Source: a virus. Taken from it: DNA of 36,071 bases. The notes under the pieces are model-generated. The model did not search any database and was not told the DNA's origin. It saw only the letters and a list, made by a program, of their open reading frames with translations. The translations under genes and the position numbers were made by a program. Below are positions 1 to 36,071 of the stretch, one piece after another (the first letter of the stretch is position 1; each line of letters begins with the position of its first letter). The stretch spans positions 1 through 36,071 of the IMG/VR virus record IMGVR_UViG_3300032093_000416; one strand, 5' to 3'.

Positions 1-59
1 CCGAATGTGATGGGAAAGGTTGCAATGAATGTGTAATAATTTTAAATGATGAACTATGA
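1..59 (+). CDS. 3' fragment of DnaJ-like Cys-motif early protein (copy 1)
   Basis: The window opens inside a reading frame that ends at the TGA at 57-59. Its last residues match the end of the complete gene at 33984-34208, including the ECDGKGCNEC cysteine motif, with one terminal change (DEL here, DEQ there). The stop overlaps the next start codon (ATG at 56). It is a fragment only because the window starts here. Function unknown; the cysteines suggest a small zinc-binding element. Confidence 0.8.
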   Translation, partial: ECDGKGCNECVIILNDEL

Positions 60-214
60 AAAAATGTACTTACTGCAAGAAGGAAAAACCAATTGAGCAA
101 TTCAACAAGAATGCCTCTGCCAAGGACAAACACGCACATAGGTGTAAGTCATGCGAAAAGGCAATTAAGGACAACAAAAAAGATATCTACTCAGATTTAT
201 ACAAGATTTTTTAA
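56..214 (+). CDS. small zinc-binding protein, 52 aa (copy 1)
   Basis: A 52-residue basic protein starting MKKCTYCKKEKP with two cysteine pairs, CTYC near residues 4-7 and CKSC near 30-33, about 22 residues apart. This spacing is typical of a zinc ribbon or an HNH-endonuclease-like zinc knuckle, but no HNH catalytic triad is visible. It overlaps the upstream stop by 4 nt (ATGA), and a diverged copy with the same length lies at 34205-34363, which supports it as a real gene. It sits in the early region ahead of a small HTH regulator. Precise role not recognised. Confidence 0.7.
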   Translation: MKKCTYCKKEKPIEQFNKNASAKDKHAHRCKSCEKAIKDNKKDIYSDLYKIF

Positions 215-231
215 TAATCAAAACCAAAACA

Positions 232-402
232 ATGACAAGCAAAGACCTCAGAAAATTAAGAAGAGACAAAGAAGTTACCCAAGAAAAACTTGCAGAAATT
301 AGTGGAATCTCACTTGCCACAGTCAACAGAGCAGAAAAGACTGGCAAGGTTAGACTCAGCACAATGCAAAAATTATTTCAAGTTTTAGAAGAAATTAATT
401 AA
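232..402 (+). CDS. small XRE/Cro-type helix-turn-helix protein (copy 1)
   Basis: A 56-aa protein that is almost only a Cro/C1-type HTH. LRKLRRDKEVTQEKLAEISG forms helices 1-2, and ISLATVNRAEKTGKVRLSTM covers the recognition helix and the following turn; LFQVLEEI closes the domain. It has the xTQexLAexsGiS...vxraE signature of the XRE family. No dimerisation or cleavage domain follows, so it looks Cro-like rather than CI-like. It is probably a transcription switch in the early operon. A copy differing by few bases lies at 34381-34551. Confidence 0.85.
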   Translation: MTSKDLRKLRRDKEVTQEKLAEISGISLATVNRAEKTGKVRLSTMQKLFQVLEEIN

Positions 403-427
403 CTTTAACATTAAATAAATCACAACA

Positions 428-709
428 ATGAAAAAACAAGTCACAACTAATGTCAGAGTCCCTGCCGAATGGTTAAAGGTTAGCATGAACGACATCATGA
501 TAATGGTCACTGCTACGATTAACGATGCAGAGGATTACCTTGATGTCAATGTTAGGGAGATTCTTATGCCAGGGTATCACTGCTTAAACATCTTGCCTCA
601 GTTTCATACTGCATTTTATGAGTTAGTAGAGCAGAAGTGTATGGATGCTTACACGTTCAAGATGGATTCAGAGTATGACCACGAATACTATTCAGATTAT
701 GCCTTCTGA
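428..709 (+). CDS. hypothetical early protein, 93 aa (copy 1)
   Basis: Not recognised. It is a 93-residue acidic protein beginning MKKQVTTNVRVPAEW, rich in aromatic and acidic residues near the C-terminus (EYDHEYYSDYAF). Preceded by the AT-rich leader AAATAAATCACAACAATG common in this phage. Aligned with the copy at 34577-34858 I count 15 base differences in 282 positions, 14 of them synonymous and one Thr to Ser, so the protein is under strong purifying selection. It overlaps the next gene by 11 nt. Confidence 0.8.
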   Translation: MKKQVTTNVRVPAEWLKVSMNDIMIMVTATINDAEDYLDVNVREILMPGYHCLNILPQFHTAFYELVEQKCMDAYTFKMDSEYDHEYYSDYAF

Positions 710-1037
710 ACGAATTGAGATGACCCTTGCAGTCAATGGTGAAGTTCGTGCTACTGCATTCCCACAGCGAACCTATGAAGGGATAGAGACCCAAAGGAAG
801 CAATGGTACTACTTTTATGGACTTAAAAGTGTAAGAGATTGGGAAATATACATTTCTCATAGGTCACCAATGAAAGAAAATACACCATTTAGAATTACTA
901 AACCTTTTCCTTATCAAATAAAATCACAACAAAATGACACAACAGAATCAAGAGCAACAAGCCTCTATTGCGAACCAGTTAATCTTGCAGGGGGACTTGT
1001 CCAAACTGTCGGCAAACGACAAAGTGAGGTACTATAA
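699..1037 (+). CDS. hypothetical early protein, 112 aa (copy 1)
   Basis: Not recognised. The start at the ATG at 699 (MPSERIEMTLAVNGEV) is preferred over the in-frame ATG at 645, which lies inside the conserved upstream gene. Between 699 and about 930 the differences from the second copy are nearly all synonymous in this frame. From 934 to 1037 it overlaps the annealing-protein gene, and there the differences are synonymous in the other frame but change this one (VQTV versus IEVV). The C-terminal tail is therefore probably unconstrained read-through until a stop. Confidence 0.7.
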   Translation: MPSERIEMTLAVNGEVRATAFPQRTYEGIETQRKQWYYFYGLKSVRDWEIYISHRSPMKENTPFRITKPFPYQIKSQQNDTTESRATSLYCEPVNLAGGLVQTVGKRQSEVL

Positions 1038-1647
1038 CGGGTATTGCGAAAGGATGGGACTTGACCCATTCACCAAACCATTTGACATCCTTAGACTCAA
1101 CGGCAGAGAGGTACTTTACTGCACAAGGTCAGGAACTCAGCAACTAAATAAGTTGCATAAGGTATCTCACTTGATTACCTCAAGGGATACTAACGCAGAA
1201 GCAGGGGTTTACATTGTAACAAGCAAGGCATCCCTTCCTGATGGTAGGTGTACTGAATCCATTGGTGCAGTCAATATTGCAGGACTAAAAGGAGAGGCTT
1301 ATGCTAATGCTATTATGAAGGCAGAAACCAAGGCAAAGAGAAGGGCAACGCTTGACTTGTTAGGATTGGGTGTTCTTGATGAATCAGAAGCAGAAACCAT
1401 CCCTAATGCATCCACAGGGGCATTACAGACAATGGTTGAAGCATTGCCTCAAATGGAGGTGGAAGCGGTTGAGGTTATTGAGGAAGACCCTGAGTTGAGC
1501 ATTGGCAGACTTGCTATTGCAATCAAGAAGGCAAGTAACATTGTAGAACTTAAAAAGGTTTACGATGATAACAAGCATAAGATTGAAACCAACAAATTTA
1601 TCAAGGACCAATTAAAAGCAAGAAAAAATGAACTCCTTAAAGGTTAA
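934..1647 (+). CDS. Red-beta/RecT-like single-strand annealing protein (copy 1)
   Basis: A 237-aa protein with the pattern of phage single-strand annealing proteins. The segment YCERMGLDPFTKPFDILRLN (about residues 34-53) parallels the 'GLNPWTKEIYAF' region of lambda Bet. NAIMKAETKAKRRATLDLLG followed by LDESEAETI parallels the Bet segment that ends in a DKDEAE-like motif. The C-terminal part (after about 180) is a Lys/Glu-rich helical tail. It would pair complementary DNA strands during phage recombination and replication. A short SSB-like protein at 2066 and a putative nuclease at 2384 are close by, as in recombination modules. The family call is by motif resemblance; no search was run. Confidence 0.6.
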   Translation: MTQQNQEQQASIANQLILQGDLSKLSANDKVRYYNGYCERMGLDPFTKPFDILRLNGREVLYCTRSGTQQLNKLHKVSHLITSRDTNAEAGVYIVTSKASLPDGRCTESIGAVNIAGLKGEAYANAIMKAETKAKRRATLDLLGLGVLDESEAETIPNASTGALQTMVEALPQMEVEAVEVIEEDPELSIGRLAIAIKKASNIVELKKVYDDNKHKIETNKFIKDQLKARKNELLKG

Positions 1648-2059
1648 TGAGATTAAAGTCGGGGATATTGCTCCCACCAAGTTTGGCATTGAGTTAATGG
1701 CAGATGCTATCCAAGAGCAGGTTAATGATGGTCTGCTTGATCCTTTAGAGGTGGCAATCAAGTTCAACAGTTTAGAACAATTAATTAAATCGGTAAAATC
1801 TCGAATAACCGAGAATGTTCTTGCAGAACTTATGAAGCACCCAAAAGGGAAGGCAGAGGTACTTGGGGCATCAGTATCTCAGATGGATTCGGTAAAGTAT
1901 GACTTCTCAGACCTTCCAGGTTGGTCCGAACTTGAAGAGCAAATCAGTGCATTAAAGGAAAAGCAAAAGGAGATAGAGGACAAAGAAAAGACCTACCATA
2001 AGGGAGACCTACCCATAAAGTCAGTAACTTCAACCTTCAAAATTCAACTTTCAAAATAA
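1628..2059 (+). CDS. hypothetical early protein with coiled-coil segment, 143 aa
   Basis: Not recognised. Starts at the ATG at 1628, overlapping the annealing-protein gene by 20 nt, so translation is probably coupled. The middle is mostly helical; residues about 95-125 (LEEQISALKEKQKEIEDKEK) form a likely short coiled coil. The base sequence 1790-1916 is identical to the last 127 bases of the window. In the second copy the ATG is replaced by CTG, so the true initiation codon may differ between variants. Its place between annealing protein and SSB-like gene suggests an accessory role in DNA metabolism. Confidence 0.75.
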   Translation: MNSLKVNEIKVGDIAPTKFGIELMADAIQEQVNDGLLDPLEVAIKFNSLEQLIKSVKSRITENVLAELMKHPKGKAEVLGASVSQMDSVKYDFSDLPGWSELEEQISALKEKQKEIEDKEKTYHKGDLPIKSVTSTFKIQLSK

Positions 2060-2848: not shown

Positions 2849-3093
2849 GGGATATAACATTTCATTTAGAGAATGCGGTTGAGTACTTGGTCTATGACTT
2901 ATCAATACTTGACATTGAAGAACGTAGGGCAAAGGCGGTAACTTTTAGATCAGGCAAGTGCGTGTGTAACTTTATGGGATATCCTCCCAATAAGATTAGC
3001 GACTTGAGGCAGGTTGGTCGCAAGGTTATCAGCAGGATTAATGGCAAAACCTATGCGGTCCGAGTGAAGAAAAAAGTTGAAGATGTTAAATAA
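2845..3093 (+). CDS. hypothetical basic protein, 82 aa
   Basis: Not recognised. An 82-aa protein starting in an ATGA overlap with the putative nuclease. The C-terminal half is basic (RQVGRKVISRINGKTYAVRV, KKK), which would suit nucleic-acid binding. It is the last gene before the promoter and structured RNA at 3076-3222, and its 3' end contains the -33 element of that promoter. Confidence 0.7.
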   Translation: MRDITFHLENAVEYLVYDLSILDIEERRAKAVTFRSGKCVCNFMGYPPNKISDLRQVGRKVISRINGKTYAVRVKKKVEDVK

Positions 3094-3106
3094 AATGTTA
3101 TATTTG
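3076..3106 (+). promoter_or_regulatory. Bacteroidota-type promoter GTTG-N19-TATATTTG
   Basis: The -33-like element GTTG lies at 3076-3079 and the -7-like element TATATTTG (TAnnTTTG) at 3099-3106, separated by exactly 19 bases. This is the spacing of the perfect match at 33546-33576. The predicted start of transcription is near 3110-3113, immediately before the structured RNA. Partly inside the end of the upstream gene. Inferred from consensus only. Confidence 0.6.
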
Positions 3107-3109
3107 GAG

Positions 3110-3222
3110 TACTTGATAGTGGAACATCAAGAGCATTATAAAATTATTAATGCCTTAAGGAGATTCGGAGGTTTAGCGTAGGCTGACCTGTTCCACCCGA
3201 ATCTTTTTAAGGTATTTTTTTT
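3110..3222 (+). ncRNA. structured RNA or leader with pseudoknot and U-tract
   Basis: Four compatible pairings can be read directly. P1 is a 6-bp hairpin (3112-3117 with 3126-3131) with loop 3118-3125. P2 is a continuous 16-bp stem (3153-3168 with 3197-3212, two G-U pairs). P3 is an inner hairpin (3169-3171 plus 3173-3177 with 3182-3189, one bulge, GUAG loop). A 7-bp tertiary pairing joins the P1 loop GTGGAAC (3119-3125) to GTTCCAC (3190-3196), the only unpaired stretch inside P2. A T8 tract (3215-3222) follows P2 and touches the start codon of the replication gene at 3223. It could be a free small RNA ended by an intrinsic terminator, or an attenuating leader of that gene. Confidence 0.65.
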
Positions 3223-3981
3223 ATGAATACTGGACAAATTGTAAAGAGCAAATCAACCGAAAGGTTCACAACTTTACCAAATGAGTTGATAAAGTCCAAG
3301 TCTCTGTCTCTTGATGAAAAAGGTCTTTTGAGTTATTTATTATCACTTCCATCTGATTGGGTCATTTATAAAAAGAATCTGTACAATAATCTTCCCGACA
3401 AACCTGGAAGCATAGATAGGGCATTTAAAGGATTGCAGTCTAAAGGTTATATCTTATCAATAAAGATGCATGACCAAGGTACAGGAAGGTTTGTAGGTTG
3501 GAATCATATTGTCTATGACATCCCTGCCGAAAGTGAACATTGCCGAGTTCGGGAAAACCCGACATCGGAAATTACCGACCTCGGTGAAAGTACCATTATA
3601 CAAAAGACTAATTCCATACAAAAGAAAGATTTAATACAAATAAAAGAATTAGAGTTCATTTCTGATGACTGGGAAAATGTTTGGAAAGGATGGATGGAAT
3701 ATAAAAAGGTTGAGCATGGTAACAAGTTCAAGTCTGCCAAGACTGAGCAGACTGCCATAAACAACTTGGTAGAACTTTCTGGGGGTAATTTAGAAACTGC
3801 GAAAAAAGTTATCAATCAAAGCATCTCAAATAACTATAAAGGATTATTCAAACTTAAAGAAACCAAAAATGGAACAAGCACTAAGTCAAACTTTGACATC
3901 TATAATGAGAAACGAAACGAGTACCATGACTACTTCTCCGAGATTGACAGACTCAGAGCAACTGGACTTGGAACGCTTTAA
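3223..3981 (+). CDS. replication initiator / replisome organiser-like winged-helix protein
   Basis: A 252-aa protein with an N-terminal winged-helix domain (about residues 14-85: FTTLPNELIKSKSLSLDEKG ... IDRAFKGLQSKGYI) of the type found in phage replication initiators and DnaD-like replisome organisers. A low-complexity linker (about 105-145) leads to a C-terminal helical region (WENVWKGWMEYKKVEHGNKF ... AKKVINQSISNNYKGLF) resembling the C-terminal domain of such proteins. It would bind the phage origin and recruit the host helicase machinery. Its start codon directly abuts the U-tract of the structured RNA, suggesting regulation there. Overlaps the next frame. Confidence 0.65.
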   Translation: MNTGQIVKSKSTERFTTLPNELIKSKSLSLDEKGLLSYLLSLPSDWVIYKKNLYNNLPDKPGSIDRAFKGLQSKGYILSIKMHDQGTGRFVGWNHIVYDIPAESEHCRVRENPTSEITDLGESTIIQKTNSIQKKDLIQIKELEFISDDWENVWKGWMEYKKVEHGNKFKSAKTEQTAINNLVELSGGNLETAKKVINQSISNNYKGLFKLKETKNGTSTKSNFDIYNEKRNEYHDYFSEIDRLRATGLGTL

Positions 3982-33545: not shown

Positions 33546-33576
33546 TTTGGTAGTATGAAATAAAATATTATCTTTG
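33546..33576 (+). promoter_or_regulatory. strong Bacteroidota-type promoter TTTG-N19-TATCTTTG
   Basis: TTTG (33546-33549), 19 bases, then TATCTTTG (33569-33576): a full match to the Bacteroidota consensus. Transcription would start near 33583, 24 bases before the first early gene. It is the best candidate for the main early promoter. Confidence 0.8.
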
Positions 33577-33999: not shown

Positions 34000-34208
34000 T
34001 TGAAAGACACAAACTATTAGGAGAACTTATTGATGGTATGATTTATAGCGGAGAAGCTGTGTCTCATGCTCAAGAATTGGTTGAAACCTGGAGACTGAAA
34101 GGTTATATTAAATCGGTAATACTGCCTTATAATGAAGAAGAAACCTGCCCCGAATGTGATGGGAAAGGTTGCAATGAATGTGTAATAATTTTAAATGATG
34201 AACAATGA
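33984..34208 (+). CDS. DnaJ-like Cys-motif early protein, 74 aa (copy 2)
   Basis: Start placed at 33984 (MDLNTIERHKLLGELIDGMI), because the longer frame (from 33897) overlaps the zinc-ribbon gene. The C-terminus has CPECDGKGCNEC, a half-unit like the DnaJ zinc repeat CxxCxGxG. The N-terminal half is helical. The 3' end is repeated at 1-59 with one residue changed. Role unknown. Confidence 0.65.
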   Translation: MDLNTIERHKLLGELIDGMIYSGEAVSHAQELVETWRLKGYIKSVILPYNEEETCPECDGKGCNECVIILNDEQ

Positions 34209-34363
34209 AAAAATGTACTTACTGCAAGAAAGAGAAACCAATTGAGCAATTCAATAAGAACGCCTCTGCTAAAGACAAACACGCACACAGATGCAAAGCC
34301 TGTGAGAAGGCAATTAAGGACAATAAAAAAGATATCTATTCGGATTTGTATCGTATTTTTTAA
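34205..34363 (+). CDS. small zinc-binding protein (copy 2)
   Basis: Diverged second version of the gene at 56-214, same length and same four cysteines; conservative changes such as Ser to Ala within the second pair (CKSC to CKAC). See the first copy for function. Confidence 0.7.
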   Translation: MKKCTYCKKEKPIEQFNKNASAKDKHAHRCKACEKAIKDNKKDIYSDLYRIF

Positions 34364-34380
34364 TAATCAAAACAAAGACA

Positions 34381-34551
34381 ATGACAAGTAAAGACCTCAG
34401 AAAATTAAGAAGAGACAAGGAAGTTACCCAAGAAAAACTTGCAGAGATCAGTGGAATCTCACTTGCTACAGTCAATCGTGCTGAAAAGACTGGCAAGGTT
34501 AGACTTAGTACAATGCAAAAATTATTTCAAGTTTTAGAAGAAATTAATTAA
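34381..34551 (+). CDS. small XRE/Cro-type HTH protein (copy 2)
   Basis: Second version of the HTH gene at 232-402; the nucleotide differences are few and almost all silent, so the encoded 56-aa protein is essentially the same. Confidence 0.85.
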   Translation: MTSKDLRKLRRDKEVTQEKLAEISGISLATVNRAEKTGKVRLSTMQKLFQVLEEIN

Positions 34552-34576
34552 CTTTAACATTAAATAAATCACAACA

Positions 34577-34858
34577 ATGAAAAAACAAGTCACAACTAAT
34601 GTCAGAGTCCCTGCGGAATGGTTAAAGGTTAGCATGAACGACATCATGATAATGGTAACCGCTACCATTAATGATGCAGAGGATTACCTTGATGTCAATG
34701 TTAGGGAGATTCTTATGCCAGGTTACCACTGCCTAAACATCCTGCCTCAGTTCCATTCTGCATTCTATGAGTTGGTAGAGCAGAAGTGCATGGATGCTTA
34801 CACGTTCAAGATGGATTCAGAGTATGACCACGAATACTATTCTGATTATGCCTTCTGA
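34577..34858 (+). CDS. hypothetical early protein, 93 aa (copy 2)
   Basis: Second version of the gene at 428-709, with 15 base differences and a single Thr to Ser change. Confidence 0.8.
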   Translation: MKKQVTTNVRVPAEWLKVSMNDIMIMVTATINDAEDYLDVNVREILMPGYHCLNILPQFHSAFYELVEQKCMDAYTFKMDSEYDHEYYSDYAF

Positions 34859-35186
34859 ACGAATTGAGATGACCCTTGCAGTCAATGGTGAAGTCCGTGC
34901 TACTGCATTTCCACAGCGTACCTATGAAGGGATAGAGACACAAAGAAAGCAATGGTACTACTTTTATGGACTTAAAAGCATTAAAGATTGGGAGATATAC
35001 ATTTCTCATAGGTCACCAATGAAAGAGAATACACCATTTAGAATTACTAAACCTTTTCCTTATCAAATAAAATCACAACAAAATGACACAACAGAATCAA
35101 GACCAACAAGCCTCTATTGCGAACCAGTTAATCTTGCAGGGGGACTTATCGAAGTTGTCGGCAAACGACAAAGTGAGGTACTATAA
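34848..35186 (+). CDS. hypothetical early protein, 112 aa (copy 2)
   Basis: Second version of the gene at 699-1037. The first part is conserved with silent changes; the part overlapping the annealing-protein gene changes residues freely. Confidence 0.7.
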   Translation: MPSERIEMTLAVNGEVRATAFPQRTYEGIETQRKQWYYFYGLKSIKDWEIYISHRSPMKENTPFRITKPFPYQIKSQQNDTTESRPTSLYCEPVNLAGGLIEVVGKRQSEVL

Positions 35187-35802
35187 TGGGTACTGCGAAA
35201 GGATGGGACTTGACCCATTTACCAAACCATTTGACATCCTAAGACTTAACGGCAGAGAGGTACTTTACTGCACAAGGTCAGGAACTCAGCAATTGAATAA
35301 ACTCCATAAGGTATCGCACTTGATTACCTCAAGGGATACCAATGCAGATGCAGGGGTTTACATTGTAACTTCTAAGGCATCCCTTCCTGATGGTAGGTGT
35401 ACTGAATCAATTGGTGCAGTCAACATCGCAGGACTTAAAGGTGAAGCATACGCCAATGCCATTATGAAGGCAGAAACCAAGGCAAAACGAAGGGCAACGC
35501 TTGACTTGTTAGGATTAGGCGTTCTTGATGAATCAGAGGCAGAATCAATCCCTAATGCAGTCTCAGGGGCATTGCAAACAATGGTTGAAGCATTGCCTCA
35601 GATGGAAGTGGAAGCGGTTGAGGTTATTGAAACAGAGGCAGAAGAAGAGAAGACCATTGGTAGACTAATGATTGCCATTAAAAAAGCGGAAACCATCGCA
35701 GACCTCAAGAGCATTTACGATAGCAATAAACACAAAATTGAAACCAATAAATTTGTAAAAGATGAACTCAAGAAACGAAAATCTGAACTTGTTAAAGCTT
35801 AA
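35083..35802 (+). CDS. Red-beta/RecT-like single-strand annealing protein (copy 2)
   Basis: Second version of the gene at 934-1647, two residues longer (239 aa). The core is nearly unchanged, while the linker around residues 180-195 (VIETEAEEEKTIGR against VIEEDPELSIGR) differs in length and sequence. This shows that the core carries the function and the linker is free to vary. Confidence 0.6.
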   Translation: MTQQNQDQQASIANQLILQGDLSKLSANDKVRYYNGYCERMGLDPFTKPFDILRLNGREVLYCTRSGTQQLNKLHKVSHLITSRDTNADAGVYIVTSKASLPDGRCTESIGAVNIAGLKGEAYANAIMKAETKAKRRATLDLLGLGVLDESEAESIPNAVSGALQTMVEALPQMEVEAVEVIETEAEEEKTIGRLMIAIKKAETIADLKSIYDSNKHKIETNKFVKDELKKRKSELVKA

Positions 35803-36071
35803 TGAAATAAAGGTGGGGGATATTGCCCCCACTAAGTTTGGCATTGAACTTATGGCAGATGCTATCCAAGAACAAGTCAACGATGGTCTGGTTGATCCCT
35901 TAGAGTTAGCAATCAAGTTCAATAGTTTGGAGCAATTAATCAAGTCGGTAAAATCTCGAATAACCGAGAATGTTCTTGCAGAACTTATGAAGCACCCAAA
36001 AGGGAAGGCAGAGGTACTTGGGGCATCAGTATCTCAGATGGATTCGGTAAAGTATGACTTCTCAGACCTTC
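35783..36071 (+). CDS. hypothetical early protein (copy 2, cut by window end)
   Basis: Second version of the gene at 1628-2059, open to the window end. The codon aligned to the ATG at 1628 is CTG (35783); a TTG follows at 35789 and the next in-frame ATG is at 35852. The last 127 bases (35945-36071) are identical to 1790-1916. Confidence 0.65.
   Translation, partial: MNLLKLNEIKVGDIAPTKFGIELMADAIQEQVNDGLVDPLELAIKFNSLEQLIKSVKSRITENVLAELMKHPKGKAEVLGASVSQMDSVKYDFSDL

Follow-up and report, generated by a model that had tools for sequence, protein, structure and literature searches.

Many otherwise unlike phages of Bacteroidota-type hosts apparently share a structured RNA that heads their replication operon. 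We describe it from a viral DNA of 36,071 nucleotides (IMG/VR virus record IMGVR_UViG_3300032093_000416, positions 1 to 36,071), the whole of which is referred to here as the window, and from dozens of IMG/VR phage lineages in which the same architecture, in unrelated sequence, precedes a replication gene. The interpretation that we favour, with moderate confidence only, is that the element is a kissing-loop transcription attenuator of the replication operon, the terminated product of which is a small RNA. Sequence comparison shows how the RNA is built, where it sits, that it carries promoter and terminator signals and that its two loops have co-evolved. That it is transcribed and terminated, in which direction it acts and that it has no small-molecule ligand are inferences made without transcript, termination or probing data.

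The element in the window

The element and the gene behind it comprise the following parts.

3076..3106, + strand: promoter of Bacteroidota type, with GTTG at 3076-3079 (-33 region), N19 and TATATTTG at 3099-3106 (-7 box)
3112..3131, + strand: hairpin A, the 5' hairpin, with 6 bp CTTGAT/ATCAAG (3112-3117/3126-3131) and loop AGTGGAAC
3119..3125, + strand: kissing strand k1, GTGGAAC, in the loop of hairpin A, the exact complement of 3190-3196
3132..3152, + strand: A/U-rich linker from hairpin A to the terminator, mostly unpaired in the minimum free energy (MFE) fold
3153..3212, + strand: terminator hairpin, with a 16-bp outer stem (3153-3168/3197-3212)
3169..3189, + strand: inner GUAG-loop hairpin within the terminator stem
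3190..3196, + strand: kissing strand k2, GTTCCAC, the reverse complement of 3119-3125
3215..3222, + strand: T8 tract, the presumed termination point, abutting the ATG at 3223
3223..3981, + strand: replication-initiator gene (MNTGQIVK...), winged-helix, downstream of the element

A sequence-only reading of the window had described the promoter, four mutually compatible pairings, the T8 tract and the ATG within and next to 3076-3222, and all of its coordinates proved to be base-exact. Its claim of a pseudoknotted RNA structure also held, with extensive compensatory change in homologues; the outcome that it had named as a refutation, paired segments changing without compensation, was looked for and compensation was found instead. 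That the replication gene is preceded by the element's own promoter holds on sequence signals, and neither of the roles which the reading had offered, a free small RNA or a switching leader, is excluded, in both cases without expression data. Two points can be refined: the stem is inferred from its sequence to be an intrinsic terminator, and in most relatives the long-range pairing is a kissing helix between two hairpin loops, not an H-type pseudoknot.

The 115 nt from 3108 to 3222 fold with an MFE of -40.1 kcal/mol, compared with -20.8 +/- 3.3 kcal/mol for dinucleotide shuffles (z -5.9, 0/200). The pairing of k1 with k2 lies outside this nested fold and is additional to its base pairs. The terminator stem can be extended to 20 positions (3149-3168/3197-3216), 85% of which are strictly complementary and the remainder G-U. 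A further hairpin in the linker of the window (GCATTA/TAATGC, 3133-3153) was rejected as part of the element, as it is not kept in relatives. The downstream gene matches a PHROG replication initiation protein family (phrog_4707, 2.4e-14) and, weakly, Pfam HTH_36 (21.1 bits against a cut-off of 25).

When both strands of the 36-kb window were scanned with a promoter-anchored descriptor, requiring a promoter box, a hairpin, a later stem that encloses the complement of the hairpin loop, and a T tract, this element was the only match. Applied to 3.28 Mb of fetched loci, with overlapping copies and other redundancy included, the descriptor returns 388 matches with a score of at least 25 in the real loci versus 5 in dinucleotide-shuffled ones. 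The pattern TTG-N17-21-TAnnTTTG occurs only twice on the + strand of the window, once as the promoter of the element. The other occurrence, at 33547, stands before a short ORF near 33.6 kb and, judged from sequence alone, might be an early-operon promoter.

An architecture shared without shared sequence

Homologues were gathered as IMG/VR relatives of the downstream initiator gene and inspected upstream of the start codon. Most share a common layout of a TAnnTTTG box, hairpin A, a linker, a terminator hairpin containing the complement of the loop, a T tract and the start codon, despite which the sequences often cannot be aligned between lineages. The descriptor yields 122 unique matches with 41 recorded loop strings, corresponding to about 40 loop sequences, each with its matching complement; one string, AAAAGG (L238), looks like a chance match and a few are length variants of one loop. 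Variants with a weak first hairpin are missed, so that these counts are lower bounds.

Among the descriptor matches the distance from hairpin to T tract is 79-107 nt, and that from the -7 box to the hairpin 2-21 nt (median 10). Both the -7 box and the T tract, which follows in all of them, are required by the descriptor, whereas the -33 TTG is not, and a TTG 15-26 nt upstream of the -7 box is found in 86 of the 122 unique elements (70%) compared with 40% of all TAnnTTTG sites. In these 122 elements an ATG follows shortly after the T tract, usually within 2-15 nt. The L253/L254 type is longer, at about 145 nt, and falls outside the descriptor; it shares with the window element the topology of an inner hairpin followed by a 7-nt bulge. 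Duplex energies of the loop 7-mers fall in a narrow range (-9.4 +/- 1.2 kcal/mol, versus -8.2 +/- 2.5 kcal/mol for random 7-mers), as would be expected if the helix were tuned to make and break, and no self-complementary loop occurs among those recorded.

Two lineages have features of their own. L095-type elements (e.g. L095:2396-2492) have a third, conserved hairpin in the stretch that separates the kissing ones, and differ by 0-8% where their flanks differ by 13-34%. In the L029 type, the promoter spacer between -33 and -7 (L029, about 3860-3890) carries an inverted repeat, ACAACC-TCGCGT-GGTTGT, which may be a repressor operator but has been seen in that lineage only.

Compensatory change in the two loops

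The least biased evidence for the loop-loop pairing comes from a stem-only search, in which the hairpin-A stem of one lineage was used as the pattern against all of IMG/VR with the seven loop bases left free. A perfect 7/7 reverse complement of its own loop was present no more than 90 nt downstream in 40 of the 42 unique matches, where swapping loops among loci gave an expectation of 0.06. One of the remaining two was cut by the contig end, and the other was a chance match with no other feature of the element. Eleven true loop types are represented in this set.

An alignment of 37 members gives the same picture, with all 258 kissing cells Watson-Crick and none G-U, all seven kissing pairs changed on both sides without any one-sided change, and a covariation of 0.688 versus 0.188 when shuffled. 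Rows were kept in this alignment only if the second strand and a T tract were within reach, and the percentage paired is therefore biased; 40/42 is the unbiased figure. Unlike the kissing pairs, the terminator stem of the same alignment has undergone many one-sided changes to G-U. The k2 strand is compensated across all lineages.

Closer to the window, ten window-type sequences, the window included, pair in 99.7% of cells. Hairpin A in the ten window-type homologues has one doubly changed pair (A-U to G-C) and 100% of cells paired, the 16-pair outer stem likewise has one doubly changed pair and 100% of cells paired, and the inner hairpin has two doubly changed pairs. Two of the seven kissing pairs are doubly changed and none is changed on one side, the loop variants GTGGAAC, GGGGAAC and GGGAAAC being matched by GTTCCAC, GTTCCCC and GTTTCCC. 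The most compact case is that of the sister contigs L346 and L348 (the same DNA as L253/L254), which are 97% identical over 5.3 kb; the only six positions at which their 172-nt element regions differ make up three fully compensated kissing pairs.

As the loops always change together, we conclude that the RNA structure is real. Simultaneous changes of this kind could also be explained by copying between the two inverted segments. The idea that the loops are rapidly evolving or hypervariable was rejected, since in the best-sampled group their heterozygosity (0.34) equals that of the linker and stems; it is their perfect co-variation alone that stands out, and no diversifying selection is claimed.

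Position at the head of replication operons

The descriptor places the element directly upstream of 60 of 72 unique initiator starts of the MNTGQI type, and inspection by eye adds six more (L111, L219, L222, L241, L253 and L254). One of the other six has it one gene further upstream (L522:8432). In some relatives the initiator gene lacks the element, and on three of these contigs none occurs in any region searched. Close relatives of the window phage, L018, L019 and L020 (L520/L521), have neither the 82-aa gene nor the RNA element, and in these the initiator is fused directly behind the previous gene; no element is found elsewhere in G001, the sole contig of this group that was scanned in full.

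Whatever its first gene, the operon is headed by the element, which stays in place when the N-terminus of the initiator, or the whole initiator, is exchanged. The first gene behind it may be the MNTGQI initiator or a version in which a different N-terminal domain is joined to the same C-terminus; elsewhere it encodes a small protein that on reading of the sequence, without a domain search, resembles DUF6291, DUF1376 or DUF4373, or is an HNH-like or GIY-YIG-like gene, followed in those operons by initiator, DnaB-like or primase genes. That such unlike genes stand first speaks against the element being where a single initiator protein binds.

A wider DNA-level explanation is that the inverted repeats act as an origin hairpin, a protein-binding site or a recombination joint and that the RNA is incidental. 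In its favour, initiator and homing-type endonuclease genes have been exchanged right behind the element, as they would be at a recombination joint. Against it, the T tract on one strand, the promoter at a fixed place, the loop-loop topology and the G-U pairs in the stems suggest a transcript, and DNA sites would have no need of two mutually pairing loops, so that we regard this explanation as very improbable. As a separate observation, the HNH-like and GIY-YIG-like genes lie exactly between the element and the replication gene in L298, L309, L327, L269 and L532 (phi46:3), and the junction after the terminator seems to be a preferred point of insertion or exchange.

The same position bears on the possibility of a stand-alone small RNA that acts elsewhere, on another mRNA or on a protein such as a host factor, with the kissing helix serving only for stability and the place at the operon head only for early expression. 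The complete unit from promoter to terminator, of nearly constant size (79-107 nt), would suit such an RNA, but lineages whose initiators are unlike retain the element directly ahead of the operon's leading gene, and there is no common primary sequence able to bind a common target. We therefore consider it unlikely.

Cultured phages with the element

The element is present at the replication module of Flavobacterium phage 11b, Polaribacter phages P12002L and P12002S, Tenacibaculum phage Gundel_1, Olleya phage Harreka_1 and Flavobacterium phages elemoA_1-9A, tooticki6-1 and filifjonk9-1, and in P12002L/S, Gundel, Harreka and elemo the operon that it heads contains a gene annotated as 'replication protein'. 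In Cellulophaga phages phi13:2, phi19:3 and phi46:3 the corresponding site shows a complementarity of nine bases, but the first hairpin is weak. Flavobacterium phage tooticki6-1 carries two elements, L535:1110 (genome position 11603) and L535:2144 (12637), with different, non-matching loops, GTCGTCG and GTGAGACG; one precedes the replication module and the other an endonuclease gene and a DUF3127 gene. These cultured phages make the question of function directly testable.

No element was found in the regions examined of Riemerella phages RAP44 and CRP5 and the Bacteroides LoVEphage, and none scored with the descriptor in Bacteroides phage C1_85S2P, Alistipes phage AS73P1, Nonlabens phage P12024S or the first 50 kb of Cellulophaga phage phi38:1. 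The window phage has no close cultured relative by DNA or by one structural protein, and by terminase only distant ones. GTDB genome representatives yielded no relative, either by alignment of the initiator or with the L171-type element pattern. The contigs are mostly from uncultivated phages, and host identity is known for the cultured ones only (Flavobacteriia); that the window phage also infects a member of the Bacteroidota is inferred from its promoter type and from these cultured phages.

Known RNA families and comparable systems

The window and 14 relatives gave no match to Rfam 15 at the gathering threshold (the presence of the guanidine-IV model in the set used is unconfirmed), and at E <= 10 the best sub-threshold matches were far below gathering scores, so that no Rfam family gives even a credible weak match to the element, which the sequence-only reading had not recognised as a known family. 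It is absent from Rfam because its sequence is not conserved, only its architecture and the complementarity of the two loops, and whole families that a structure-only descriptor finds easily can thus be missed by homology-based RNA searches. No paper describing such an element was found in the literature searched, the coverage of which was incomplete, with many subscription papers outside it.

The closest likeness is to the guanidine-IV riboswitch (GGAM-1), which also has a 5' hairpin, an intrinsic-terminator hairpin and loop-loop pairing before a protein-coding gene. In that riboswitch, pairing of the loops and formation of the full terminator are rival outcomes, the former leading to read-through (PMC7736828; PMC11611296; reviewed in PMC10907184), and the competition arises because a longer terminator stem shortens the linker (PMC7736828; PMC11611296). 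A ligand-sensing riboswitch of this design, in which a metabolite would stabilise the kissing and switch on the replication genes, would account for the common topology. The phage element, however, has no conserved ligand-pocket nucleotides; among its roughly 40 loop pairs there are no common unpaired nucleotides, the lineages have no conserved nucleotides beyond the signals and pairings, and loop sequence is free to change in pairs, unlike an aptamer core. The genes downstream are not those of guanidine export or metabolism but replication initiators, or small DUF-like or homing-type endonuclease genes before DnaB or primase genes. Together with the lack of an Rfam match, this leaves a riboswitch with very little support, and a ligand is perhaps absent altogether. 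The element may then be a ligand-free natural case of the competition between kissing loop and terminator, so far known from one riboswitch class.

Other comparisons are looser. The CI RNA of phage P4 and the C4 RNA of P1/P7 are leader RNAs found close to where a replication or antirepressor operon begins. The element resembles these in being a phage leader near an operon head with short complementary segments and premature termination, but its complementary segments are in the loops of two hairpins that belong to one RNA of about 80-145 nt, which ends in its own intrinsic terminator, and there is no sequence relation and no Rfam C4 match. RNAI/RNAII of ColE1 share with it kissing hairpin loops of about 7 nt, specificity set by the loop pair and a link to replication control (PMC9458437), whereas both loops of the phage element are on the same strand and in the same transcript. 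Plasmid-style antisense copy control was rejected, as an antisense promoter is not enriched: of 119 elements, 10 (8%) have an antisense -7 box in the 250 nt that follow, compared with 13% of control segments. The pseudoknot leader of ColIb-P9 repZ acts at translation with an antisense RNA. It too heads a replication initiator gene and contains a long-range loop pairing, the difference being that the paired stem of the phage element is an intrinsic terminator.

A proposed kissing-loop attenuator and its main rival

Given a T tract, a GC-bearing stem and a promoter in front, an intrinsically terminated leader is the natural reading, and the features of the attenuator class, namely promoter, leader, T-tract terminator before a coding region and alternative pairing, are present in the sequences of 122 elements. 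The conserved place at the operon head, kept when the initiator is exchanged, favours a cis-acting leader or attenuator that also yields a terminated small RNA.

The element would thus be both a structured leader RNA and a complete small transcription unit. RNA polymerase would start just before hairpin A, make about 105 nt and meet the intrinsic terminator, the T tract of which abuts the start codon of the replication gene; termination would give the small RNA and read-through the replication mRNA. The 7-nt loop of hairpin A would pair with the 7-nt strand exposed inside the terminator hairpin, and this loop-loop helix, forming as the terminator emerges, would compete with completion of the terminator base, because the kissing complex depends on a linker that becomes shorter as the stem closes. 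Kissing would then favour read-through, a direction that is taken solely by analogy with guanidine-IV. The element points to control of phage DNA replication at the RNA level as a general phenomenon, and it probably acts as a built-in switch.

A rough rod-and-tether model (2.8 A per base pair, 6.2 A per linker nucleotide, helices from the MFE fold) was used to assess the geometry. In the window, kissing in cis fits with the 16-bp stem, and the linker is too short if all predicted pairs form. The L421 type fits only if part of hairpin A or of the terminator base opens. In the L095 and L213 types a conserved third hairpin leaves too little tether or almost no linker, and on this approximate reckoning coaxial kissing in cis looks impossible unless other pairs open, with pairing in trans fitting at least as well. 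From these estimates we expect cis kissing and full closure to compete with each other, except that the kissing of the L095 and L213 types may be intermolecular instead; on these grounds our first choice is the attenuator, followed by a small RNA that acts in trans to regulate itself. Further points against the attenuator are that kissing could just as well make termination stronger or do no more than stabilise the small RNA, and that some relatives, as described above, have no element at the initiator gene.

In the trans alternative, which remains possible, the terminated small RNA, bearing both complementary loops, would pair with nascent leaders of the same phage and accumulate with phage copy number, the loop pair setting the specificity group. 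Specificity groups of this kind are familiar from plasmid incompatibility and P4-type RNA immunity. This alternative is favoured by loops that differ between lineages and always co-vary, by the two elements of tooticki6-1 with their non-matching loops, by the apparent steric block to cis kissing in the L095 and L213 types and by the lack of self-complementarity in any loop. Against it, loop positions in the best-sampled group are no more variable than the linker or stem, copying between inverted repeats could exchange loops without selection, and no trans effect has been shown. A bolder form, conceivable on the same evidence, is that of a widespread, sequence-free class of phage RNA that senses its own abundance, the terminated RNA pairing with nascent leaders of its own loop type and closing down the replication operon to a degree set by copy number, each phage having a specificity type and orthogonal types coexisting in one genome.

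Repeat at the window ends

Apart from the element, the two ends of the window (1-1916 and 34150-36071) form a direct repeat of about 1.92 kb which, being only 90% identical, is not an exact terminal repeat. It duplicates one set of genes, with ORFs of 93, 130 and about 237 aa, and could reflect either a real divergent duplication or an assembly of mixed strains.
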